Positions 6,234 to 25,364 of a stretch of DNA of 62,152 nt are shown piece after piece. The DNA is from a virus. The notes below the pieces were generated by a model. It was not told where the DNA came from, did no database searches, and saw only the letters and a list, made by a program, of their open reading frames with translations. Where the stretch lies: IMG/VR virus record IMGVR_UViG_3300023178_003128, positions 1 to 62,152 of that record; one strand, given 5' to 3'. How positions within the stretch are numbered: the first letter of the stretch is position 1; every line of letters starts with the position of its first letter. The translations under genes were made by a program, and so were the position numbers.

Positions 6234-6494
6234 ATGGCTGTTGTAAAAAAATTTAAAAACGCTAAACAAACTTTTGGAATGAAAGTTGTAATTGATGATA
6301 GAACTCCTTTTGACAAAGCTTTACGAATATTTAAAAGAAAAGTTGATAATTCAGGTCTTTTAAGAGAAATACGAGAAAGACAAGAATACGAAAAACCCTC
6401 CACCGAGAGAAAACTCGCAAAAAATCGTGCAAAAAAACGCTGGCAGAAAAAGTTTGAACAAACAATTGTTGCCGGTCGTGCCAAAAAATATTAG
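6234..6494 (+). CDS. rpsU: Ribosomal protein bS21
   Basis: 86 aa. The core VIDDRTPFDKALRIFKRKV, followed by SGLLREIRERQEYEKPS and a Lys/Arg-rich tail (RKLAKNRAKKRWQKK), is the bS21 pattern: a Phe/Lys helix, an ExxxRxxYEKP turn and a basic helix. bS21 sits on the 30S platform near the anti-Shine-Dalgarno end and helps initiation. Phage bS21 genes are known, including in SAR11 phages. Late-type motifs on both sides suggest late expression, when it might replace or top up host bS21 to favour phage mRNAs (inference). The N-terminus is about 15 residues longer than the usual bacterial protein. Confidence 0.9.
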   Translation: MAVVKKFKNAKQTFGMKVVIDDRTPFDKALRIFKRKVDNSGLLREIRERQEYEKPSTERKLAKNRAKKRWQKKFEQTIVAGRAKKY

Positions 6495-6502
6495 CATAAA
6501 TA
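6495..6502 (+). promoter_or_regulatory. T4-like late promoter motif of the curli operon
   Basis: CATAAATA directly after the bS21 stop, 68 nt before ATG 6570. The leader contains a 6-bp hairpin (TTACGC 6525-6530 with GCGTAA 6536-6541) and an ACAGGAAAA ribosome site. Confidence 0.55.
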
Positions 6503-6569: not shown

Positions 6570-7019
6570 ATGAAAACACCAATTTTATTGGGCGTTTTGT
6601 TATGGTCTTGTTTTGTGGTTTCAGCCCCGCTGGAAGATTTTGAATTTAAGAGTCCAGCCTTTAATGGTAATGGTTATTCTGCTCATGTTTTAACAATTGA
6701 GAATCAGGAACACTCTCGTAAGAAAGCTATTGCAGAAAAACTTGAAGCAAAACTCAAAGAAGCTGAAAGAGAAGCTAATAGCACCAATTTATCCAAATTT
6801 CTTAGCAACCTAGAATCAAGGATATATGCACAAATTAGCCAAGATTTGGCAACAGCAATGTTTGCTGATGATTCGTCATCTCCAACTTCTGGCACATTAA
6901 CATTTGAAGGAAATGTAATTTATTGGGATAAAAGTTCAGGTGATATAGAATTACAAGTTACTGATATAGCAGGCTCAACAACAACAATTACAATACCTTT
7001 GGGTGATTTTACTTTTTAA
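6570..7019 (+). CDS. csgF: Curli assembly factor CsgF homologue
   Basis: 149 aa with a Sec signal peptide (residues 1-19, ...FVVSA). The mature N-terminus FEFKSPAFNGNGYSAHVLTIENQEHSRK matches the CsgF segment that plugs into the CsgG pore. A charged helix follows (about 48-72), then a C-terminal beta region (TLTFEGNVIYWD...). In bacteria CsgF sits at the outer face of CsgG and presents the curlin nucleator. First gene of the operon; its last base is the first base of the csgG ATG, so translation is coupled. No truncation is apparent. Confidence 0.85.
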   Translation: MKTPILLGVLLWSCFVVSAPLEDFEFKSPAFNGNGYSAHVLTIENQEHSRKKAIAEKLEAKLKEAEREANSTNLSKFLSNLESRIYAQISQDLATAMFADDSSSPTSGTLTFEGNVIYWDKSSGDIELQVTDIAGSTTTITIPLGDFTF

Positions 7020-7819
7020 TGAAACACTTATTATTACTACTATTAGCTTTAGTGCTAGTTGGTTGTGCTACTGGTCAAGCGATGCGAGGCGAATACGACC
7101 CGCCAATGGCAGTAGAAAAATCGACTGTTAAAGAATTTGATTCAATAGCAAAACCAAAACTAGGCAAAATAACAGTAGCTGTTTATAATTTTATAGATAA
7201 AACAGGACAAAGACGACCAAGTCAGAATACATCCAGTTTTTCTACTGCTGTTACACAAGGCGCTGAAAGTTTTTTAATTAAAGCACTAAAAGATGTTGGT
7301 GAATGTGGTTGGTTTGATGTGGTTGAAAGAGTTGGATTAGCAAGTCTAACACAAGAAAGACAAATTATACGCCAGATGCGAGAAGCGTATGAAGGTGCTG
7401 ATGCAAAACCACTTATGCCAATGAAATTTGCAGGAATGTTAATTGAAGGTGGTATTACCGGTTATGACCAATCAACAAGAAGTGGCGGAAACGCTGCTAG
7501 ATTGCTTGGCATAGGACCATCAACAAAATATAGTGAAGATATTATTACAGTAAGTTTAAGAGCAGTCAGTGTCAATACTGGTGTGGTATTGGCTGCGGTT
7601 AATGTTCAAAAAACAGTTTATTCTACCGCTGATAGTTTAGCTGTTTTAAAATTTTATGACCAAGGCACACAAGTTTTTGAATTTGAATCTGGTCTTACTT
7701 TAAATGAGCCAGCAACAATGGCAGTTAAAGCTGCTGTTGATGCAGCTGTAGTTGAACTCATTAAAGAAGGCGAAAGGAAGAAAGTTTGGGAATTTGCTAA
7801 CAGTCAGGAGACAAAATGA
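7019..7819 (+). CDS. csgG: Curli secretion pore CsgG homologue (lipoprotein)
   Basis: 266 aa with lipoprotein signal LVGC (Cys16). Recognisable CsgG segments: KITVAVYNFIDKTGQRRPS (about 51-69), SSFSTAVTQGAESFLIKAL, GWFDVVERVGLASLTQERQIIRQ, KFAGMLIEGGITGYDQSTRSGGNAARLLGIGPS, and DIITVSLRAVSVNTGVVLAAVNVQKTVYS, the transmembrane beta-hairpin region. CsgG forms a nonameric outer-membrane channel that secretes unfolded curlin. Full family length, all blocks present. Overlaps csgF by one base and the curlin gene by four. Confidence 0.92.
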   Translation: MKHLLLLLLALVLVGCATGQAMRGEYDPPMAVEKSTVKEFDSIAKPKLGKITVAVYNFIDKTGQRRPSQNTSSFSTAVTQGAESFLIKALKDVGECGWFDVVERVGLASLTQERQIIRQMREAYEGADAKPLMPMKFAGMLIEGGITGYDQSTRSGGNAARLLGIGPSTKYSEDIITVSLRAVSVNTGVVLAAVNVQKTVYSTADSLAVLKFYDQGTQVFEFESGLTLNEPATMAVKAAVDAAVVELIKEGERKKVWEFANSQETK

Positions 7820-8586
7820 ATAAAATAGTAACAATGTTTTTTACATTATTACTGACAATGACGGTTGCGTTTGCAGCTGATAATAGCATTTATATTGACC
7901 AAGTGGGCGGAAGTTCTACAATTGATATTACACAAGATGGTAGTTCAAACAAAGTTTATGGAGTTGGAGATAGTGAAGGAACAGCCGCTACATTTACTGG
8001 TGATAGTCAGACAATTGATATAAGACAAGTTGGTTCAAGTAACTTATTAGGAATTGATTTAAATACTTCGGTTACTTCGGGTGTTGGTATTGATTTAACA
8101 TATTACATTACAGGTTCTAACTCTGTAGCAAGTATTGATGTTAATGGTGACGGTCAAGGTACCGCATCAAACAATACAATTGACATTCAAATGACTGGTG
8201 ATTATAATGACCTAACATTTGATTTACTTGGAACAGGTAATAGTTTAACTGCAACAGCAACTGGTGGTAATTATAACGATTTTGATTTTACCATTAATGC
8301 TGATTCAACCACTTCAAATGTAGCAATTAGTGGTGGCGGTGGTAATACAACAACACTTAATTTATCAAGTGATGATGCAACTGTTGATATTACAGCTGCT
8401 GGTGCAAGTAATACACTATCAGTAACACAAAGCGGTCTTGGTGGAACAAATGGTATGAACTTTGATTTAGATATTACTGGTTCATCTAACTCATTTACTT
8501 CAACACAAGCCGGCTCACAAGACAATGACATTGATGTGAATATTACTGGTTCAAGCAACACATGGACCATTTCACAAGATGACTAA
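7816..8586 (+). CDS. Curlin-like amyloid subunit (CsgA/B type)
   Basis: 256 aa, Sec signal peptide (cleavage after AFA, about residue 20). The rest is Asn/Gln/Ser/Thr/Asp/Gly-rich with imperfect repeats of about 20-25 residues carrying the strand-turn-strand pattern of curlin (such as YIDQVGGSSTIDITQDGSSN, DIRQVGSSNLLGIDL, DITGSSNSFTSTQAGSQDND). It lacks Cys and has almost no Lys or Arg. Longer than bacterial CsgA (about 150 aa). Expected to be exported by CsgG and to polymerise outside the cell. ATGA coupling to csgG and to the FecR gene ties it to the secretion system. Confidence 0.85.
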   Translation: MNKIVTMFFTLLLTMTVAFAADNSIYIDQVGGSSTIDITQDGSSNKVYGVGDSEGTAATFTGDSQTIDIRQVGSSNLLGIDLNTSVTSGVGIDLTYYITGSNSVASIDVNGDGQGTASNNTIDIQMTGDYNDLTFDLLGTGNSLTATATGGNYNDFDFTINADSTTSNVAISGGGGNTTTLNLSSDDATVDITAAGASNTLSVTQSGLGGTNGMNFDLDITGSSNSFTSTQAGSQDNDIDVNITGSSNTWTISQDD

Positions 8587-9683
8587 TGAAAAAGTTTCTA
8601 GCACTCTTATTGTTAATACCCCTATTAGCTGAGAGTGCTATAGGAACTATCACAGACCACAAACACGACCCTCTATCAATCAAAAGACAAGATAAGACAC
8701 TAGAAGGTATTATGGGTACCGGTGTCGAAATGCAAGATACATTACGCACAGGCCAAGGCACGGCTGAAATTACATTTGAAGACCAAACACAAGTTCAAAT
8801 GACACAATCAGCCAAACTTATCATTGATGAGTTTGTCTATGACCCAGCAAATAGTGATGCAAGTAAATTGGCATTAAAGATTGCATCTGGAACGGCTAGA
8901 TACGCTTCTGGACAAATAGCAAAGAATAATCCACAGAAAGTTAAAATTAAAACGCCTAGCGCAACGGTATCGGTCCGTGGTACTGATTTTACTGCAACTG
9001 TTGATGAGATAGGTGCAACAACAGTTATTCTATTACCAAGTTGCCCAGCAGGTTGGCTTGATATGGAAAGAGATTGTATTACAGGTGCAATTGAAGTTGA
9101 ATCCTTAGGTGGTGTTGTTTTTATGGATAAACCATTTGAAGCAACTCGTGTGCCTAACCTAGAAGCAAAACCAACCCCACCAGTTATTGTTGATTTAACA
9201 GAGGAGATGATTCGACAAATTATTATTGTTGGACCACCTAAAGAAATTAAAGAACAAGATGTTGCAGAAGCCTCAAATAATATATTAGATCAAAGTGAAT
9301 TAGATAAAGACTTACTAGAAAATGAACTTGATAAAGAAGATGAAAAACTTTATGAAAACAAACTGGCACAAAATCTATTAGATAGAGATTTTCTTAAAAA
9401 CATTTTAGATATATTAGATTTACAATTAAAACTAGCACAAGAAAGAACATTATCAACACAAGAAAAGAATGAGATACTTCCTGATTATATACCTGACCAA
9501 GGTGTAACAGCAACAGTTGATACAATCAATGTTGAACTTTGTATTGATACGACCGGTAGTGATATTGCTTGTGTCAGAGTTCCCACACACCAAGAAGCTA
9601 CCATAAGACAAATACAAGGCGCTGTTGATATAACAAATAGGGTGAATAGTGAAGGCACGACCATAATTACAACTAAACAATGA
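8586..9683 (+). CDS. Exported FecR-domain protein
   Basis: 365 aa, Sec signal peptide (1-18). The FecR domain spans about 40-145: VEMQDTLRTGQGTAEITFEDQTQVQM, LKIASGTARYASGQ, and KVKIKTPSATVSVRGTDFTATVD. Two Cys (153, 164) may form a disulfide. Residues about 225-285 are a long charged coiled coil (LDQSELDKDLLENELDKEDEK...), followed by a C-terminal domain with a second Cys pair. This is not a Fe-dicitrate sensor: it lacks the cytoplasmic tail and membrane helix of classic FecR. As an infrequently discussed partner of CHASE2 cyclases, it may act as a periplasmic ligand or scaffold (inference). Overlaps both neighbours. Confidence 0.75.
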   Translation: MKKFLALLLLIPLLAESAIGTITDHKHDPLSIKRQDKTLEGIMGTGVEMQDTLRTGQGTAEITFEDQTQVQMTQSAKLIIDEFVYDPANSDASKLALKIASGTARYASGQIAKNNPQKVKIKTPSATVSVRGTDFTATVDEIGATTVILLPSCPAGWLDMERDCITGAIEVESLGGVVFMDKPFEATRVPNLEAKPTPPVIVDLTEEMIRQIIIVGPPKEIKEQDVAEASNNILDQSELDKDLLENELDKEDEKLYENKLAQNLLDRDFLKNILDILDLQLKLAQERTLSTQEKNEILPDYIPDQGVTATVDTINVELCIDTTGSDIACVRVPTHQEATIRQIQGAVDITNRVNSEGTTIITTKQ

Positions 9684-9802
9684 AAACTATAATTCTTATT
9701 TGTGTATTTTTAATTGGTTGCACCACACCTGTGGAAGGCAAGTATCCTGTCAACGAATATTTGAGGCCAAATGGTTGGAACGACCATTTTTGGGTAGCAT
9801 GA
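9680..9802 (+). CDS. 40-aa lipoprotein
   Basis: A tiny frame in a different phase from its neighbours, starting at ATG 9680 (ATGA overlap with the FecR gene) and ending TGA 9800-9802 (overlapping the next ATG at 9799). It encodes MKTIILICVFLIGC, a lipobox with acylated Cys14, then TTPVEGKYPVNEYLRPNGWNDHFWVA, an aromatic tail of 26 residues. Coupling on both sides and a clean lipobox make it convincing despite its size. Perhaps a small partner of the CsgG channel or an anchor for the FecR protein (inference). Confidence 0.65.
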   Translation: MKTIILICVFLIGCTTPVEGKYPVNEYLRPNGWNDHFWVA

Positions 9803-11298
9803 GATACTTAATCACAATACTGTTATTTGTCTGTTCTAATGCGTTTGCTTTAGACATCCTAATTTATCACAACAACTATGCTTACACTGATTCAAAGTCT
9901 GGACTTGAAGGGCAAGGATACACTGTGACAGGCACAACATCAACAACAACTGATTCAGCATCAACTCTGGCAAACTATGATGTAGTATTTGACCAACTAT
10001 ACAACAATAACTGTGGATCAACTTGTCGTGGTAACTATGACACTTATGTTAAAGACGGTGGCACTCTAGTTATCGTGGGCGAGAACTCAAACTTTTCTGG
10101 TAGAAACTCAAACATTGTGAGTTTGATTGAAAACAAGTTTGGAGGCACATTAGATTTAGGTTCTGATGTTTATGGTGGAGAATATTACACGGGTGGCACG
10201 AACAACACAACCAATACATCAATTAGTGGCGCTGATGATGGCGGACAATATATTGCTGGATCAAGTATTGCCACAACATCAGACGGCACTTGGGTAGCAA
10301 AGACCTCTGGTGGCGCCATAATTTGGATGATGTGGCGTGGCAGTAGTTTGCCAAGTGGCTACACGGGTTCTGTTATAGTGACATTTGACATTAATCAGTT
10401 CCAAGCAAGTTATGATAGTGATGCTACCTGGGAATTCTTTGATGATGTTGTTTATTATGGTATCAATGGTGAAATGCAATCAAGTTCACCAACAACATCT
10501 ACCACAACAGGAACAAGTGGTGGTATAACATCAGCACAGTCAACATCTAAGAGCCAAGCAAGAACAAGAAGCGATAGTTACACAAATGGTAATACTGTTT
10601 ATATTGACCAGATTGGTAATAATAATACCGTAACAATCGAACAAGATGGCACAGCAACAAATACTATCAAAGGAATATATCTAAATGGTAATGATGCTGG
10701 TGTAATAAATGGAAGTTCAAATACAATTGAAATGAGACAAGGTGCTGACACAAGCACATCATCAAACTTAATTGAGTTTTCTATTATTGGTAGCACAAAC
10801 GATGTATTGTTATACCAAGATAGATTGAATACAGGATATGAAGACACACAAGCTGGTGGTGGCCATACAATACAATTAGATTTAGATGGTGATTTAAATG
10901 ACATTGATATTATTCAAAGAAATAACTATGATACCAATGGTGGTCATTTTGTAAATTTAGAAGTAACAGGTGATAGTAATGTTTTAGATTTAAAACAAAT
11001 TTCTGACTATGGTAAAAATATATTTGGTAAAGTAACAGGTGATTCAAATAATGTTACTGTTTATCAACACGATGATTCAAACAAATACCTAGATTTCAAT
11101 TTAACTGGTGATGGTCATACAATTGATGTTGAACAAACCGGTACAGGTGCTCATAATGCTGAGATTGATTTAACATATGGTTCAGCTTCATCAACAGTTA
11201 ATTTACTTCAACAAGGTTCAACCAACCAAAGTTACTCAATAGAACAAACTTGTTATACAACAGGTGGATGTTCAACCACCGTAACTCAAGGCCAATAA
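9799..11298 (+). CDS. Large curlin-repeat protein with N-terminal globular domain
   Basis: 499 aa from ATG 9799, chosen over the upstream in-frame start at 9700 because it begins a clear signal peptide (MRYLITILLFVCSNAFA) and couples to the lipoprotein. Residues 18-245 form a globular domain (ILIYHNNYAY..., YDVVFDQLYNN, GGTLVIVGENSNFSGRN, GGAIIWMMWRG) resembling ThuA/GATase-like alpha/beta domains. A Ser/Thr linker (about 230-265) follows, then about 230 residues of curlin-type repeats (VYIDQIGNNNTVTIEQDG; VTGDSNVLDLKQ; GDGHTIDVEQTGTG). It could be the nucleator (CsgB role) or an adhesive fibre tip. The final repeats carry two Cys. Confidence 0.8.
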   Translation: MRYLITILLFVCSNAFALDILIYHNNYAYTDSKSGLEGQGYTVTGTTSTTTDSASTLANYDVVFDQLYNNNCGSTCRGNYDTYVKDGGTLVIVGENSNFSGRNSNIVSLIENKFGGTLDLGSDVYGGEYYTGGTNNTTNTSISGADDGGQYIAGSSIATTSDGTWVAKTSGGAIIWMMWRGSSLPSGYTGSVIVTFDINQFQASYDSDATWEFFDDVVYYGINGEMQSSSPTTSTTTGTSGGITSAQSTSKSQARTRSDSYTNGNTVYIDQIGNNNTVTIEQDGTATNTIKGIYLNGNDAGVINGSSNTIEMRQGADTSTSSNLIEFSIIGSTNDVLLYQDRLNTGYEDTQAGGGHTIQLDLDGDLNDIDIIQRNNYDTNGGHFVNLEVTGDSNVLDLKQISDYGKNIFGKVTGDSNNVTVYQHDDSNKYLDFNLTGDGHTIDVEQTGTGAHNAEIDLTYGSASSTVNLLQQGSTNQSYSIEQTCYTTGGCSTTVTQGQ

Positions 11299-11308
11299 AT
11301 AAGAAACT

Positions 11309-13309
11309 ATGAATAAATTATTATCGCCTTGGTGGGCACTTTTATTACTTTTTATATTAATCCCGATTCGAGTAAATGATTATGCTTTTGTTGAATCATT
11401 ACGATTAAGATATTTTGATACACTGATAACATCAGTACCAGAAACAACAAACAATATACATCTGGTTAATATTGACGAATCAGCACTTGAAAAACATGGA
11501 CAGTTTCCATTTAATCGTGGTGTTTATGCTGACATCATTGAAGATTTATATAAAAGAAAAGCCGGTCTAGTTATATTTAATATAATGATGCCTGAGAAAG
11601 ATAGGTCAGGTGAAGATTTTAAATTAATAGAAACATTAAAAAATTATCCTATCATATTACCTAATGCTGGTTCAGATGTAACAAAAAATGAACCAAAAAA
11701 TCCAGGTGCAGTTTCAATTGGTATTAGTAGAGACAAAACAGTTGAATATCCTGGTATCATAGCCAACATAAAAGAATTAGAACAACTTGCTTCTGGTGTT
11801 GGCATTGTAAATACATTTCCTGAGATTGATGGTGTGACACGAAGAATGCCATTAGTCATTTCAAGTAATAATATTCTTTATCCTAGTTTATCACTTGAGA
11901 CTTTGAGAGTTATTGCTGGTGACCCAAGTTTTCAAATTAAATTTAATGAACTTGGTGTTCAAGCATTAAGAATACCACAGTTTGGTAAAATACAGACGGA
12001 TACCATTGGTCGTATATGGATTGATTGGCAACAAAAAGGTGTCGAACATAGTCTAACTAAACTTCCAGATTCTTTTGATGATGGTGTTGTAATCGTAGGT
12101 GTGACAGCGAAAGGATTATCAAATCCAATTTCTACAAGCATAGGCGAAGTATGGCCACATTATGCACAAGCTTCAGTTGTAGGAACTTTGTTCAATAATG
12201 TTAATATATCAAGGCCTGATTGGGCTGACGGTGCTGAATTACTCAGCATTGTTGTTTTATCAATCATACTACTTTTAATATCGAGGTGGAAATATGGAAT
12301 TATTCCTAACATTGGTATTATTTACGGTTTGTATTATACTTCGATGTATGTTTTCCAAAGAGAAAATATATTATTGGACGCTTCTTTTCCTATTGTCAGT
12401 GTGGTTATTGTTTATAGTATTGGTTATACGCTTAAATTTCTATCTGAATTAAGACAAAAACTACAAATTAAAAAACAATTTGGAACTTATCTATCACCAG
12501 CTCTTGTAGAAAAACTACAAAAGAATCCTGAGTTACTTAAACTCGGTGGTGAGACACGAGAATTATCAATTATGTTTTCAGATGTTCGTGGTTTCACAAC
12601 CATATCTGAACACTATGGAAAAGATGTTCAAGGTTTAACTCAAATTATGAACCGTTATATGACCGCTATGACACAAAAAATACTTGATAACAACGGAACA
12701 CTTGACAAGTATATTGGTGATGCTCAGATGGCATTTTGGAATGCCCCACTTGATGACAGAGACCATGCTAAAAATGCTGTTAAGACAGCTCTTCAAATGT
12801 TGGAAGACTTAAGGAGTTTTAACCATGAAATCTCAAAAGAAGGTATCCCGCCGTTCGGTATGGGATTGGGTATTAATTCTGGCGATGTGGTTGTGGGTAA
12901 TATGGGCAGTTCTCAGCGCTTTGACTATACTTGTTTGGGCGATAGCTGTAATCTCGCATCAAGGTTAGAGGGTCAAAGTAAAAATTATGGTGTTGAATTA
13001 ATCATTGGTAAAAGAACCGCAGATTTAATACAAGATGAATATGATGTTGTTGAATTAGATACAATTGCTGTAAAAGGTAAAACACTAGGTGTCAAAATAT
13101 ATACAGTGACACCTATGCCAGATAAAACAGAACATAAAAAGTTCTTAAGAGCATATTATGCTGGTGAATGGAAAACGGCTTTACTAATGACAGGTAAATT
13201 AAGAATACAAAATTCTCAACTAATTAAATATTATGATTTAATGGCAGAAAGATTAAAACAAGGTGTTCCTGCTAAATGGGATGGAGTATATCACGCTACT
13301 TCGAAGTAG
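11309..13309 (+). CDS. CHASE2-domain class III adenylate cyclase
   Basis: 666 aa. N-terminal signal anchor (6-22); periplasmic CHASE2 domain (about 30-300: RYFDTLI, VNIDESALEKHGQFPFNRGVYADII, GLVIFNIMMPE, DGVTRRMPLVI); three membrane segments (about 308-378); class III cyclase domain (415-590). Catalytic residues are present: metal Asp425 in FSDVRGFT, Asp471 in DKYIGDAQMAFW with Lys467, substrate-specifying Asp539 in FDYT, and Asn548/Arg552 in NLASRLEG. The Lys/Asp pair points to ATP over GTP. It should make cAMP in the cytoplasm in response to a periplasmic cue. Full bacterial length; same strand and 10 nt after the curlin-repeat gene. Confidence 0.9.
   Translation: MNKLLSPWWALLLLFILIPIRVNDYAFVESLRLRYFDTLITSVPETTNNIHLVNIDESALEKHGQFPFNRGVYADIIEDLYKRKAGLVIFNIMMPEKDRSGEDFKLIETLKNYPIILPNAGSDVTKNEPKNPGAVSIGISRDKTVEYPGIIANIKELEQLASGVGIVNTFPEIDGVTRRMPLVISSNNILYPSLSLETLRVIAGDPSFQIKFNELGVQALRIPQFGKIQTDTIGRIWIDWQQKGVEHSLTKLPDSFDDGVVIVGVTAKGLSNPISTSIGEVWPHYAQASVVGTLFNNVNISRPDWADGAELLSIVVLSIILLLISRWKYGIIPNIGIIYGLYYTSMYVFQRENILLDASFPIVSVVIVYSIGYTLKFLSELRQKLQIKKQFGTYLSPALVEKLQKNPELLKLGGETRELSIMFSDVRGFTTISEHYGKDVQGLTQIMNRYMTAMTQKILDNNGTLDKYIGDAQMAFWNAPLDDRDHAKNAVKTALQMLEDLRSFNHEISKEGIPPFGMGLGINSGDVVVGNMGSSQRFDYTCLGDSCNLASRLEGQSKNYGVELIIGKRTADLIQDEYDVVELDTIAVKGKTLGVKIYTVTPMPDKTEHKKFLRAYYAGEWKTALLMTGKLRIQNSQLIKYYDLMAERLKQGVPAKWDGVYHATSK
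13296..13309. terminator. Palindromic hairpin at convergent gene ends
   Basis: CTACTTCGAAGTAG is a perfect 14-nt palindrome ending the cyclase gene, followed on the plus strand by T-rich DNA (13311-13325). It may be a weak terminator for the plus operon. The T-richness is also Lys codons of the opposing gene, so this is tentative. Confidence 0.3.
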
Positions 13310-13565
13310 AATCTTTTCCTTTTTTTCTTTCTTCTTCTTCTCGTAATTGTAGGATTGTATTGAGTTTTTGATTAAGGCGAATAAGGTCATTATCTAACAT
13401 ACGAACTCTATCAATTAAATCAATTAATATCTTTTGTGCATCACCGATAACTGGTGCAACTTCCTCAGTTACCCATTTCCAAATAAAGTAAATGAAGTAA
13501 CCAAGGCCGAAGACTGCTATGATTGGAAAACCATAGTTTTGTATTAATTCTGCTATATTATCCAA
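13296..13565 (-). CDS. Holin-like membrane protein with coiled coil (copy 2)
   Basis: 89 aa: MDNIAELIQNYGFPIIAVFGLGYFIYFIWKW (one membrane segment about 12-30), then an amphipathic coiled coil (AQKILIDLIDRVRMLDNDLIRLNQKLNTIL) and a charged tail. It shares its layout and residues (GFPI-A, GYF, ND-IR) with the protein at 14320-14598, so the two are paralogues. Size, single N-terminal segment and charged tail fit small holins, but no family was identified. Last gene of the minus-strand cluster; its 3' end overlaps the convergent cyclase gene by 14 bases. Confidence 0.65.
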   Translation of the reverse strand: MDNIAELIQNYGFPIIAVFGLGYFIYFIWKWVTEEVAPVIGDAQKILIDLIDRVRMLDNDLIRLNQKLNTILQLREEEERKKGKDSTSK

Positions 13566-13666
13566 TTCAATAAAAATCCTATAATCAATCCAAGAGCGAA
13601 TGATATAAACATATCTTTATCATACCATAAAGGTGTTTTGGGTAATCTTTTTATTTGTTTTTTCAT
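13553..13666 (-). CDS. 37-aa single-pass membrane protein
   Basis: A micro-gene between two others: ATG at 13666-13664 (overlapping the upstream stop as ATGA) to TAG at 13555-13553. The product is MKKQIKRLPKTPLWYDKDMF followed by a hydrophobic helix ISFALGLIIGFLLNWII ending at the stop. A basic N-terminus and terminal helix suggest an N-in membrane peptide. Coupled overlaps on both sides support expression. Could be a lysis-cassette or envelope-modulating peptide (inference). Confidence 0.6.
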   Translation of the reverse strand: MKKQIKRLPKTPLWYDKDMFISFALGLIIGFLLNWII

Positions 13667-13959
13667 TGTAATTCTACTTGTTCAAATTTATCATATGGTA
13701 ATTCTGAAAAATCTCCATTATGCCAATCAATATGTATCATATTAGGATATTCTTTCATAAAATACCAACAGCCAGGAATATATAGTCCGTCTATTCTTTG
13801 TGCTGATGCTTTCATATATCCTTTTGGTTTATCTTCACATTCTGTTTCTTGTGATAGTACCACTCTTAAACCATCATATATGTACATTACTAGCAATGGT
13901 TCTAAAGCATTAACTGTAAGAGTCCAAAATAATAATATTAGTAAAGTTATCTTTTTCAT
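13663..13959 (-). CDS. Exported small cysteine protein A
   Basis: 98 aa, Sec signal peptide (MKKITLLILLFWTLTVNA). The mature part begins LEPLLVMYIYDGLRVVLSQETECEDKPKGYMKA, with a second Cys in IPGCWYF, then an acidic tail. It resembles its neighbour at 13956: a strand after the signal, ExC in the first half, PGxxx aromatic block, and IDxxxGD near the end. Probably a periplasmic paralogue pair with one disulfide. Family not recognised. ATGA coupling upstream and downstream. Confidence 0.65.
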   Translation of the reverse strand: MKKITLLILLFWTLTVNALEPLLVMYIYDGLRVVLSQETECEDKPKGYMKASAQRIDGLYIPGCWYFMKEYPNMIHIDWHNGDFSELPYDKFEQVELQ

Positions 13960-14315
13960 AATGTATAATCCTGATTATTTTCTTTTTCAGGTTTAAAAAT
14001 ATCCAATGGCCATTCTACTCTTAAACCATCACCATCAATAAAGTTTACCATAGGAAAAACTTTGTAACCTGGTATTTTAGGGGCATCAGCAACACTAGGA
14101 ACATCATAACAACCCTCATAAACAATATTTGCTTCATTTGTGGTTGCATAACCTCTGTATGGATATTCTTTACTATATTTTGATAATTGGCAAGATTCGT
14201 GGGTGAGAACAATATAACCTCCAGCATCATTGGCGGCGTAAACCTCAAGGGTTACTGGATCGGCTGCAGAATCTAGCGCTAACAATAGCGCCACTAAAAA
14301 CATTTGTATTTTCAT
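13956..14315 (-). CDS. Exported small cysteine protein B
   Basis: 119 aa from the internal Met at 14315, chosen because it starts a signal peptide (MKIQMFLVALLLALDSAA); the frame is open upstream to an ATG at 14384 inside the previous gene. Mature protein DPVTLEVYAANDAGGYIVLTHESCQL..., second Cys in YEGCYDVP, IPGYKVFPMVNFIDGDGLRVEWP near the end. Similar plan to the next gene. Likely periplasmic; function unknown. Confidence 0.65.
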   Translation of the reverse strand: MKIQMFLVALLLALDSAADPVTLEVYAANDAGGYIVLTHESCQLSKYSKEYPYRGYATTNEANIVYEGCYDVPSVADAPKIPGYKVFPMVNFIDGDGLRVEWPLDIFKPEKENNQDYTL

Positions 14316-14319
14316 GGGA

Positions 14320-14598
14320 TTAATCCTTCCGAGCGTCATTCTTTCCGTCAGCTCGAGCAATGCGATTGATATCTGGTTTAACACCTAGAGCGGACGACAT
14401 AAGAGTGTCTATGCGAATAACATCGTGATTCATAGTTTTTACACGATTGTCTAATGCTATAATAATGCCACTCAGACGCTTGACAGAATCAGTCACATCT
14501 GATAGAATAAATTTCAATGTTAAAAAAACAAAATAACCGGCAGCCATTGCAGCTGCAATTGGAAATCCTACATCGGTTACTAAACTTAAAAAGTCCAT
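14320..14598 (-). CDS. Holin-like membrane protein with coiled coil (copy 1)
   Basis: 92 aa: MDFLSLVTDVGFPIAAAMAAGYFVFLTLKFIL (one membrane segment) then VKRLSGIIIALDNRVKTMNHDVIRIDTLM (coiled coil) and a charged tail. Paralogue of the 89-aa protein at 13296. First gene of the minus cluster, 30 nt downstream of a late-promoter motif, with a GAGG ribosome site. The pair of one-helix proteins with exported partners could form a holin/antiholin or spanin-type lysis set, but this is inference from size and topology. Confidence 0.65.
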   Translation of the reverse strand: MDFLSLVTDVGFPIAAAMAAGYFVFLTLKFILSDVTDSVKRLSGIIIALDNRVKTMNHDVIRIDTLMSSALGVKPDINRIARADGKNDARKD

Positions 14599-14614: not shown

Positions 14615-14643
14615 TTGACTTTATGTCCTATTTATGTTAATAT
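14615..14643 (+). promoter_or_regulatory. sigma70-type promoter P3
   Basis: TTGACT (14615-14620), 17-nt spacer, TAATAT (14638-14643), TGT extended -10. Predicted start about 14650, 36 nt before ATG 14686. CTAAATA at 14646-14652 may add a late start on the same strand. Confidence 0.65.
14629..14636 (-). promoter_or_regulatory. T4-like late promoter motif for the minus cluster
   Basis: The minus strand reads CATAAATA here, 30 nt before the ATG at 14598. It lies entirely within the spacer of the plus-strand sigma70 promoter P3, so the two polymerases cannot use both at once. Confidence 0.55.
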
Positions 14644-20444: not shown

Positions 20445-20564
20445 GTGGAAAACTTAAGCATAATTCAAATTATAGTGGCCTTCGCAGTAGGCTCATTAGT
20501 AATTGGTGCTATATTAAGTTGGATATATTTAATCTGGATTTTTATAAAGGAAAAATTTTCATGA
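20445..20564 (+). CDS. 39-aa single-pass membrane protein (GTG start)
   Basis: In the gap between ahpC and the barrel gene a frame runs from GTG 20445 to TGA 20562-20564, overlapping the next ATG (ATGA). It encodes MENLSIIQIIVAFAVGSLVIGAILSWIYLIW plus a basic tail IFIKEKFS, one clear membrane helix. No strong ribosome site, hence moderate confidence; the ATGA coupling is the main support. Confidence 0.45.
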   Translation: MENLSIIQIIVAFAVGSLVIGAILSWIYLIWIFIKEKFS

Positions 20565-21127
20565 AGAAAATTCTATTAGCAGTATTACTTGCAACATCTC
20601 TAACTGTTATGGCAGAAGAGCAAACTAAAAAAGGTTACTATGTTGGCCTTAAATTAACACATGAAGATAATAAAAATGGCAGTGATGCTGATAAATGGGG
20701 TATGACATTTGGTAAGCATTTATATAAATGGTTAGATGCTGAAATTTATACAAGAACAAAAGATAAAGACACCGGTAGTAATGATACCAAACTTGAAGGT
20801 GCCGTGATTGGTAAGTATAAATTAACCGATAGTCTATCCGCCTATACTCGTGCCGGTATTGGTAACAAATACACACGAGATGAAGACTATGGTTATTGGA
20901 CAATTGAACCAGGTTTAAAATATAAACTCAATGATGATTGGTCAGTTAAAACGGGTGTTCGTTTCCGTGACGCTTTTCAAACAGACCATAATGCTAATGA
21001 TACAACATATAAAACAAGTGTTGGATATAAACTTACAGACGATACTTCTATCGATATGGGTTATGCCCTTAAACGAGGCGATTCAAAAACAGAAGAATTT
21101 GGTTTAGGACTTAAGTTCGAATTTTAA
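20561..21127 (+). CDS. Small outer-membrane beta-barrel protein
   Basis: 188 aa from ATG 20561 (AAAGGA upstream), preferred over an in-frame start at 20408 because it begins a signal peptide (MKKILLAVLLATSLTVMA). The mature protein alternates hydrophobic/polar strands (GYYVGLKLTHED; WGMTFGKHLYKWLDAEIYTRTKD; LSAYTRAGIGNKY; YWTIEPGLKYKLNDDWSVKTGVRFRD; YKTSVGYKLTDDTSIDMGYALKRG) and ends EFGLGLKFEF, with the terminal Phe recognised by the Bam machinery. About eight strands, OmpA/OmpW-size. A phage-made barrel may block the receptor (superinfection exclusion) or alter permeability (inference). Confidence 0.8.
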   Translation: MKKILLAVLLATSLTVMAEEQTKKGYYVGLKLTHEDNKNGSDADKWGMTFGKHLYKWLDAEIYTRTKDKDTGSNDTKLEGAVIGKYKLTDSLSAYTRAGIGNKYTRDEDYGYWTIEPGLKYKLNDDWSVKTGVRFRDAFQTDHNANDTTYKTSVGYKLTDDTSIDMGYALKRGDSKTEEFGLGLKFEF

Positions 21128-23578: not shown

Positions 23579-23938
23579 ATGAAAAAAGTGAAACTTAAAC
23601 CGTTTCAGAAATTGTTGACAGTTATGATTTCTGGAAATCCAGTAACAAAAGATGAAGTAAATACATTACTCGGCAACGAGATTTATATGTATCGTATTTC
23701 AACATACATTTGGCATATTAAAACTGTTGCAAATGGTATTGTTCGTATCATCAAAGACGGCCGAAAAGTAACATCATATCAATTGGTCAATGTTGATGAA
23801 GTTAAAGAATATATGCGTAGAGTTGGTATAATGAACACCAATTATACACCAGGCAATATCACTAAAAAACCTTCAATTTCTAAACTAGCACAATTAGATG
23901 CTGAACCGATTGTTGAAGAAAAATTACAGGTTGCCTAA
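23579..23938 (+). CDS. Winged-helix-like regulator
   Basis: 119 aa from ATG 23579, placed 8 nt after GAGGAA; a TTG at 23564 is in frame but inside that site. Residues about 5-75 read as a winged helix: FQKLLTVMISGNPVTKDEVNTLLG, then a helix MYRISTYIWHIKTV and a wing GIVRIIKDGRKVTSYQLV. The C-terminal third is low-complexity. A DNA-binding phage regulator is a reasonable reading, not proven. First gene of the P6 operon with the envelope pair behind it. Confidence 0.55.
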   Translation: MKKVKLKPFQKLLTVMISGNPVTKDEVNTLLGNEIYMYRISTYIWHIKTVANGIVRIIKDGRKVTSYQLVNVDEVKEYMRRVGIMNTNYTPGNITKKPSISKLAQLDAEPIVEEKLQVA

Positions 23939-24687
23939 TGAAAAAATTATTACTACCTTTATTAATCACATCAATGTTTGCTAACGCAGAAGTGGTTACG
24001 GCTGTTGGTGAATACAAATATGGTCCTGATACATCAGATGAAGTGGCTTGTGATATGGCAAGAATTATTGCAAAACAAAATGCAATATTAGATGTTGCTG
24101 GTGAAAACATCGGTGCAACTATTATTGAAAATTGCAGTAATGAAAAGTGCGATATTCAACGAGACATGATTGCTGACCAACAAGGCTATATTAAGAGTGT
24201 GGTTGAAGAAACATCACAAATAGGTAAATCGGTTGGTTATAAAAAATGCACATCAGTTATTCGTGCAGATGTTGAAAAGATTGATAATCCAATTCAATTC
24301 AGATTACAACAAACCGAGTTTAATTTTTATGAAGGTGATGAAGTTGTCATTAGTGGCACATCAAACAAACAAGGATTAGTTTTGGCGTTTGTTTATGATA
24401 ATGGTATATACCATTTCTTGGATGGCCAAATGATTACCACATCTCCAGGCAAATTTCTGTTACCATCTTCACAAGAAGATAGTTTGAAAGCTTATTTACC
24501 ACAGAATCAATTACAAAGTAAAGAGCTATTAACTGTATTGTTTATTGAGAATGATGATAGACAATATGATATCAAACCAATGTATAGTAAGATTGAGATG
24601 GAAAATCTCCTTGCAACTATACCGGTACAGAAGCGTAGAGTAATTAATGAGTTTGTTTATATTATGAAAAAAGGAAATATACTATGA
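23938..24687 (+). CDS. Exported DUF4384-like protein
   Basis: 249 aa, signal peptide (MKKLLLPLLITSMFANA). The N-terminal half (VVTAVGEYKYGPDTSDEVACDMARIIAKQNAILDVAGENIGATIIENC) resembles the repeat-type start of LPP20/FlgT-like envelope proteins, with Cys pairs at about 38, 65 and 70. The C-terminal half (FYEGDEVVISGTSNKQGLVLAFVYDNGIYHFL) resembles DUF4384. Such domains occur next to CsgG/FlgO-type outer-membrane systems. Coupled to the lipoprotein gene after it by a 4-base overlap. Confidence 0.6.
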   Translation: MKKLLLPLLITSMFANAEVVTAVGEYKYGPDTSDEVACDMARIIAKQNAILDVAGENIGATIIENCSNEKCDIQRDMIADQQGYIKSVVEETSQIGKSVGYKKCTSVIRADVEKIDNPIQFRLQQTEFNFYEGDEVVISGTSNKQGLVLAFVYDNGIYHFLDGQMITTSPGKFLLPSSQEDSLKAYLPQNQLQSKELLTVLFIENDDRQYDIKPMYSKIEMENLLATIPVQKRRVINEFVYIMKKGNIL

Positions 24688-25364
24688 AAAACAAAAGTCT
24701 GATTGCCATTCTTGTTGCTTCTTTATTTGCAACAGGTTGTGGCTCGGTCAAATATACGACCGGTTTTGAGTTAGATACCAAATCTGACCCCGAAGTAGCG
24801 GAATCTGGTGTTGAAGTATCTTATCCAGAGTGGTATAATGCTGAATTAGAACAAGACGATGGTAATCTATATGCAGTTGCTACTGAATATTCAAAAGATA
24901 TGCAATTTGCTCTTGATAAAGCTACACTATCTGCTAAACGAGACCTAGCTTCTAATTTCTCATCTCATGTTAGTTCAATGATGAAAGATTATGCTACAGA
25001 GATTGGTGATTTAGATGCGGCTGTTATCCGTGAAATCGACAGAACAACAAAATTGGTTGTTGCTCAGGTTAATATGATTGGTGTTCAACGAACACATATG
25101 TCTATGATTTATGCAAAAGATGGTTATCGTGCATATGTAAAACTTAGATATGTTCCTGACCAAGCTAATCGTGTTTTATTACAAGAAGTTTGGCAAAACG
25201 AAAAACTTAAAGCTAAGTTCCAAGGTTCTAAACGATTTAAAGAACTGGAAGATTCGGTGCAAAACATTAAACAAAATGAAATAAATGAAATTCATGCAAT
25301 AACAGGAAGTCCTGATGTTGAAGTTATTCCTTATACACCAGAACCACCTGTTCAAGTTCAATAA
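24684..25364 (+). CDS. LPP20-family outer-membrane lipoprotein
   Basis: 226 aa, lipobox LFATGC (Cys19). The core PEWYNAELEQDDGNLYAVATEYSKDMQFALDKATLSAKRDLASNF (about 47-92) is the LPP20 pattern seen in FlgP and related lipoproteins: W-x-N near the start, GxxYAVG-like strand, then A-x-x-A-x-x-RxxLA helix. C-terminal coiled coil and Pro-rich tail. Probably tethered to the outer membrane, paired with the DUF4384-like protein. Could contribute to an outer-membrane ring or to the curli exporter (inference). Confidence 0.7.
   Translation: MKNKSLIAILVASLFATGCGSVKYTTGFELDTKSDPEVAESGVEVSYPEWYNAELEQDDGNLYAVATEYSKDMQFALDKATLSAKRDLASNFSSHVSSMMKDYATEIGDLDAAVIREIDRTTKLVVAQVNMIGVQRTHMSMIYAKDGYRAYVKLRYVPDQANRVLLQEVWQNEKLKAKFQGSKRFKELEDSVQNIKQNEINEIHAITGSPDVEVIPYTPEPPVQVQ

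Follow-up and report, generated by a model that had tools for sequence, protein, structure and literature searches.

A phage curli operon with a modular second curlin that may display exchangeable domains

Introduction

What a marine phage would do with a curli (type VIII secretion) operon is the question raised by positions 6570-13309 of the IMG/VR virus record IMGVR_UViG_3300023178_003128. The window analysed is the whole of that 62-kb record (62,152 nucleotides), itself a fragment. The reading that we favour, with confidence a little better than even, is that the operon encodes exported fibres whose second curlin, here called CurB, presents exchangeable binding domains on them; that the proteins are secreted, form fibres, display these domains and adhere, and when they do so, is what we infer from the genes.

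A partial curli operon was reported in pelagimyophages in 2020 (PMC7029224). The whole module, of CsgF, CsgG, curlin, FecR, second curlin and adenylate cyclase, was reported in podo- and myo-type pelagiphages in 2022 (PMC9599517), where it was expressed in metatranscriptomes and where sibling capture, superinfection defence and import were proposed as roles. The window operon is thus already described in kind, including its FecR and adenylate cyclase genes (PMC9599517). For phage Melnitz it was argued that csgA/B are lacking, and the pore was recast as a lysis regulator (PMC9004378).

Gene content of the operon

Seven + strand open reading frames (ORFs) occupy the locus, their junctions overlapping by 1, 4, 1, 4 and 4 bases in order, with a 10-base gap between CurB and the cyclase. 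The features are as follows, with lengths in amino acids (aa):

6495-6502, + strand: CATAAATA, promoter-like element, T4-late-like, 75 bases upstream of csgF
6570-7019, + strand: CsgF, 149 aa, with signal peptide (Pfam PF10614, 1.9e-13; position kept in relatives)
7019-7819, + strand: CsgG, 266-aa lipoprotein, homologue of the outer-membrane secretion channel (Pfam PF03783, 2.9e-49)
7816-8586, + strand: CurA, 256-aa curlin, presumed main fibre subunit (Curlin_rpt 1.6e-4; CsgA model 6.5e-6)
8586-9683, + strand: exported FecR-domain protein, 365 aa (Pfam FecR, 4.6e-11)
9680-9802, + strand: 40-aa lipoprotein with lipobox LIGC, between FecR and CurB
9799-11298, + strand: CurB, 499-aa modular curlin (Curlin_rpt, PF07012, 7.4e-5)
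9850-10476, + strand: exchangeable N-terminal domain of CurB, about 210 aa ("Ndom")
10588-11295, + strand: curlin-repeat region of CurB, with a C-terminal CYTTGGC motif (from alignment and model)
11309-13309, + strand: CHASE2 class III adenylate cyclase (IIIb-type, Lys/Thr), 666 aa (CHASE2 5.5e-34; Guanylate_cyc 2.4e-20)

Both the ORF coordinates, which are unchanged, and the Pfam matches agree with an earlier note on this DNA, which had described seven same-strand genes with mostly 1-4 base overlaps. The window holds the features by which a curli or type VIII system is recognised, namely a CsgG homologue, CsgF and curlin-repeat substrates (PF07012) in two genes. Residues 1-264 of CsgG match solved, ring-forming E. 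coli CsgG structures over the full length (phmmer, 1.4e-45), a result that does not go against the earlier note.

CurB and its exchangeable N-terminal domain

The case for display is carried by CurB. A Cys...Cys tail ends 82 of 83 CurB sequences and none of 107 CurA or of 48 curlins from bacterial csgG loci (viral sets non-redundant); the first count is slightly favoured, as the CurB set was partly collected with a tail model, and the zeros are unaffected. The window CurA also has no such tail. Judged by sequence, CurB is a distinct, phage-specific modular curlin, of which no published account was found.

At its N-terminus CurB carries, depending on the relative, a PA14 domain (L006, L007 and HTVC008M; L numbers denote the sampled loci), an F5/F8 type C (F5/F8C, discoidin) domain (L181, L220, L225), the window Ndom (L011, L053, L055, L154, L211, L213, L218 and others), another long region or no domain. 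The Ndom is 81-83% identical between the window and L011, L053 and L055. Mapped on a tree of CsgG from 81 operons, the domain type switches no fewer than 27 times (contig ends may have truncated some of the "short" types), with 14 changes for PA14 and 9 for Ndom, hardly fewer than under shuffling; targeted scans enriched the sample for both, so that type frequencies are not natural. Pairwise comparisons show the same exchange: between the window and L053 the N-terminal part of CurB is 75% identical, against 34-51% in every other module, whereas between the window and L007 it is 28% identical, against 55-77% in all other modules. Exchange of the N-domain that is fast relative to the rest of the operon is as expected of a target-binding part. 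Binding-type domains exchanged rapidly on a conserved export machine also recall phage receptor-binding modules, and the N-domain is proposed as a fibre-borne counterpart of the receptor-binding module of phage tail fibres. Engineered fusions of curlin with binding domains (CsgA-nanobody) work on curli fibres (PMC9477280). They resemble CurB in that a binding domain is fused to a curlin and borne on a fibre, but they are man-made CsgA fusions, whereas the CurB domain is natural, N-terminal and placed on the second curlin.

The AlphaFold model of CurB residues 264-499 consists of regular short strands, with a predicted local distance difference test score (pLDDT) mostly of 70-95. This regular array agrees with the repeat structure supposed earlier and makes a solenoid plausible. 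A Foldseek search with the CurB model returned no significant relative, and repeat periodicity, judged by Q/N spacing, was not above that of shuffles.

Conservation and selection

Viral loci were gathered from IMG/VR by scans with CsgG, FecR or CurB domains, of which the FecR scan gave at least 600 stretches. These loci retain the order CsgF-CsgG-CurA-FecR-(CurB)-cyclase, with both curlins in nearly all complete loci. Absences of genes fall mostly at contig ends, several contigs extend past FecR without a recognised CurB, and the cyclase is not present in every operon. Pairwise ratios of nonsynonymous to synonymous substitution (dN/dS) between close relatives were 0.05-0.27 for all six conserved genes, apart from one CurB pair at 0.53 in which CurB looks replaced. 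The genes are thus neither decayed nor scattered in relatives and are under purifying selection, two outcomes that could have gone against the earlier note, and the operon is probably functional and kept intact by selection. Of the set of channel, gatekeeper, fibre subunit and nucleator that had been proposed, gene order, dN/dS and the repeat model bear out a complete, conserved operon with two curlins, but for the "nucleator" modular display curlin is the better description.

The 40-aa lipoprotein, which had been counted as part of the operon, falls outside the conserved system: it occurs only in the window and in the near-identical contig L005, and was rejected as a conserved component. Its weak match to EexN (E 0.14) was treated as chance. 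Other lineages have unrelated small ORFs or none between FecR and CurB; in L023, L033, L039 and L042 this slot holds a conserved single-transmembrane (TM) protein of about 50 aa (WHEDL...Y...LLLxWIF). Curli operons were also seen on viral contigs of 289-349 kb (L173, L199, L201, L203), and are therefore not confined to pelagimyophages of about 140 kb and small podophages.

Named relatives and bacterial counterparts

The baseplate wedge protein of the window best matches those of Melnitz, HTVC008M and Mosig, at 36-39% identity. With core genes closest to these three phages, the window is assigned to a pelagimyophage or Kyanoviridae-like T4-type phage. HTVC008M (gp014-gp019) and Melnitz (gp99-gp104) carry the same six conserved genes, with CsgG 46-48% identical to that of the window; the CurB N-terminus is PA14 in HTVC008M (annotated as hypothetical), whereas Melnitz CurB has no N-terminal domain and the Melnitz cyclase has a different type of catalytic domain. 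The statement that Melnitz lacks curlin subunits (PMC9004378) does not stand, because two curlin-repeat proteins are annotated in its record, Curlin_rpt scores above cut-off in Melnitz as well as in HTVC008M, and the gene order is complete in each of the two.

The reported pelagiphage modules (PMC9599517; PMC7029224) share with the window CsgF, CsgG, curlin, FecR, second curlin and adenylate cyclase in the same order, and no CsgE, CsgC or CsgD was reported in them. The window differs in its private 40-aa lipoprotein, in the extra N-terminal domain of its CurB and in the gene directly upstream of csgF, which encodes ribosomal protein S21 (6234-6494, + strand), where podo-type pelagiphages reportedly have a histidine kinase. 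Neither paper names the PA14 form of the CurB N-terminal domain in its main text. E. coli curli (csgBAC, csgDEFG) have the CsgG channel, CsgF and curlin repeats in common with the phage; unlike E. coli, the phage has no detected CsgE or CsgC and no reported CsgD, its operon includes FecR and a CHASE2 cyclase, and its second curlin bears a binding-type domain and the Cys tail.

The bacterial comparison drew on the 80 genome loci whose csgG was closest. FecR and cyclase neighbours were found there only in short contigs with viral gene order, in L061, a longer contig from the same metagenomic bin as one of these short contigs, and in one true chromosome, that of Hyphomonas sp. TMED17 (L058). In the latter, CsgF, CsgG, curlin, FecR and CHASE2 cyclase stand together on a 705-kb contig with bacterial flanks, and CsgG lies on the viral side of the tree, in which a strongly supported branch splits phages and Hyphomonas from 63 other bacterial sequences. 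It differs from the phages in having no CurB, and is a single metagenome-assembled genome (MAG) with a long branch. Because this branch is long, the CsgG tree does not fix the direction of transfer. FecR and the cyclase may be older than the phage operon, to which CurB looks to have been added in phages.

Several csgG genes in MAGs that bear the labels Flavobacteriaceae, Rhodobacteraceae, Pirellulales and Pelagibacter were taken for mis-binned phage DNA, being on short contigs with viral gene order. A "Salmonella phage" CsgG match (L004) was likewise not accepted as Salmonella-phage curli, as it lies on a 1.5-kb, low-coverage, unverified contig.

The FecR-domain protein and the cyclase

AlphaFold places the FecR barrel at residues 20-200 (pLDDT about 80-90), followed by a variable region and a C-terminal stretch that resembles a curlin strand. 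In Foldseek searches the barrel resembled periplasmic FecR/PupR-type domains and gave a 62-column match to the adhesin cell-surface anchoring domain 5ix9 (E 0.057). The N-terminal signal peptide leads straight into the barrel. A FecR-type sigma regulator was rejected because a signal peptide is present and a cytoplasmic anti-sigma part is absent; no sigma gene adjoins it.

By motif, the window cyclase has the complete class III residue set, with metal-binding Asp425 and Asp471, Lys467/Thr541, Asn548 and Arg552, and the closest solved structures to its catalytic domain are bacterial adenylate cyclases. Catalytic domains swap between operons independently of CHASE2; L007 and L006, for example, are 81% identical in CHASE2 and 47% in the catalytic domain. 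A second catalytic-domain type (RHSYDVLGDAVSTAARIES), with Ser at the transition-state Asn position, was seen at L006:15720-17756, at L003:11574-13622 and in L018, L044 and L047, and its activity may differ. A survey of the family of the Pelagibacter-labelled genome behind L089 found domains that bind cyclic nucleoside monophosphates (cNMP) in 5 of 118 genomes and a class III cyclase in 3, two of which also carry csgG and probably contain phage contigs. The window record likewise encodes no domain of the cNMP-binding kind. Should the host be SAR11, no receptor for cyclic AMP (cAMP) is obvious. A Pycsar assignment (PADLOC, 5.9e-28) was not adopted, as what matched is the class III catalytic domain in general and no effector of a Pycsar system was seen.

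The promoter-like element

The CATAAATA at 6495, which the earlier note had called a late motif, deviates by a single base from the T4 late consensus TATAAATA. The consensus itself is strongly under-represented in the window (1 copy against 9.7 expected), and the 9 copies of CATAAATA are no excess over the 8.0 expected. Eight of these nine, however, stand 36-79 bases upstream of a start on their own strand, in a zone (30-80 bases, set after looking) that covers about 2.6% of strand positions, so that CATAAATA very probably is a real promoter element of this phage. The rarity of TATAAATA and the placing of CATAAATA possibly reflect a shifted promoter consensus in the window's phage lineage. In close relatives, GATAAATA or TATAAATA stands 24-28 bases upstream of csgF. 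Late timing of the element and of the curli operon is something we infer and go no further, because the genes under CATAAATA mix gp32 and RNase H with a cell-wall hydrolase and a baseplate-region gene.

Possible functions

In the mechanism that we propose, CsgG and CsgF would form an outer-membrane channel and its extracellular cap, through both of which CurA and CurB would be exported. CurA, as main amyloid subunit, would build the fibre; the CurB repeats would join it, so that CurB caps, anchors or decorates the fibre and its N-domain is shown outside the cell. The FecR-domain protein would serve as gate, plug or anchor, either in the periplasm or at the channel; the envelope would be sensed by the CHASE2 cyclase. 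The likely pay-off is that new host cells, debris or progeny virions would be held near the lysing cell. A bolder version, in which a naturally decorated amyloid turns the lysing cell into a host trap, FecR replaces CsgE as plug or retention factor and the cyclase serves in hosts nearly without known cAMP effectors, is offered tentatively and is rather doubtful as a whole.

Several points weigh against fibres that display binding domains. Fibres and secretion are so far predicted from genes, and no match to the CsgE family (PF10627) was found by profile searches of the 62-kb window record or of complete HTVC008M and Melnitz; the same searches found no CsgC family match, and both absences had been noted earlier. 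That of CsgE is not taken to exclude type VIII membership because the window is a fragment and alphaproteobacterial curli systems are also said to lack it (PMC9599517). The CurA repeats are degenerate, without significant periodicity. The window Ndom has no Pfam match and no significant PDB sequence match, and its AlphaFold model has pLDDT below 50, the alignment probably having mixed unrelated N-domains. About half of the sampled CurB proteins have no N-terminal domain, so display cannot be the only role of CurB. No clumping of cultures was seen in the Melnitz study (PMC9004378), which speaks against aggregation as a general role, but Melnitz CurB is one of those without an N-domain.

Of the rival explanations, superinfection exclusion was put forward in PMC9599517. 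In this reading fibres covering the infected cell would keep out or catch other phages that compete for it, and the variable domain would be matched to the competitors present locally. Expression in the infected cell, expected of any phage operon, is compatible with this, and fast exchange of an outer domain also fits an arms race. PA14 and F5/F8C, however, fit adhesion at least as well as shielding; we regard superinfection exclusion as unlikely. Distinctly improbable is a CsgG-CsgF pore put to a new use, gated so as to time lysis or take up nutrients, beside which the curlins would be incidental or degenerate. It was proposed for Melnitz (PMC9004378), and the absence of the CsgE gate is in its favour, yet it rests on missing curlin genes that Melnitz and HTVC008M in fact carry; CurA, FecR and CurB are moreover under purifying selection like CsgG, and complete loci nearly always keep both curlins.

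The cyclase and FecR protein might instead form a cAMP or envelope-stress module that reprograms host signalling while the curli genes ride along. The catalytic residues of the window cyclase are present, and a bacterial biofilm operon that also has a histidine kinase puts CHASE2 and FecR side by side (PMC5192318). This is nevertheless very improbable, given how few genomes of the surveyed family have a cNMP-binding domain or a class III cyclase, that the window encodes no such binding domain, that some operons do without the cyclase and that the host of the window phage is not established.

Other envelope-related genes in the window

Downstream of the operon, a block on the - strand (13296-14598) holds two copies of a single-TM protein of about 90 aa (PHROG 18771, unknown function), one with a very weak holin-family match, and two small exported proteins; it has its own CATAAATA element at 14636. 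A further envelope module could be formed by two adjoining exported proteins at 23938-25364 (+ strand), of which the second is a lipoprotein that weakly matches LPP20 (E 0.0056). An outer-membrane beta-barrel protein at 20558-21127 (+ strand; OMP_b-brl 1.2e-10, also Phage_OMP) is a candidate for a further change of the host surface.

Significance

The correction on the curlins of Melnitz and the pelagimyophages removes the basis of the pore and lysis idea. It is a puzzle that an adenylate cyclase that looks intact occurs in phages of a bacterial family nearly without recognised cAMP-binding domains. Three earlier reports of phage curli operons came without a function, for which the modular CurB offers a testable candidate, the surface bound by each N-domain. 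Should the fibres prove adhesive, encounter rates, aggregation and debris in the surroundings of abundant ocean bacteria that lack curli themselves would be shaped by them.

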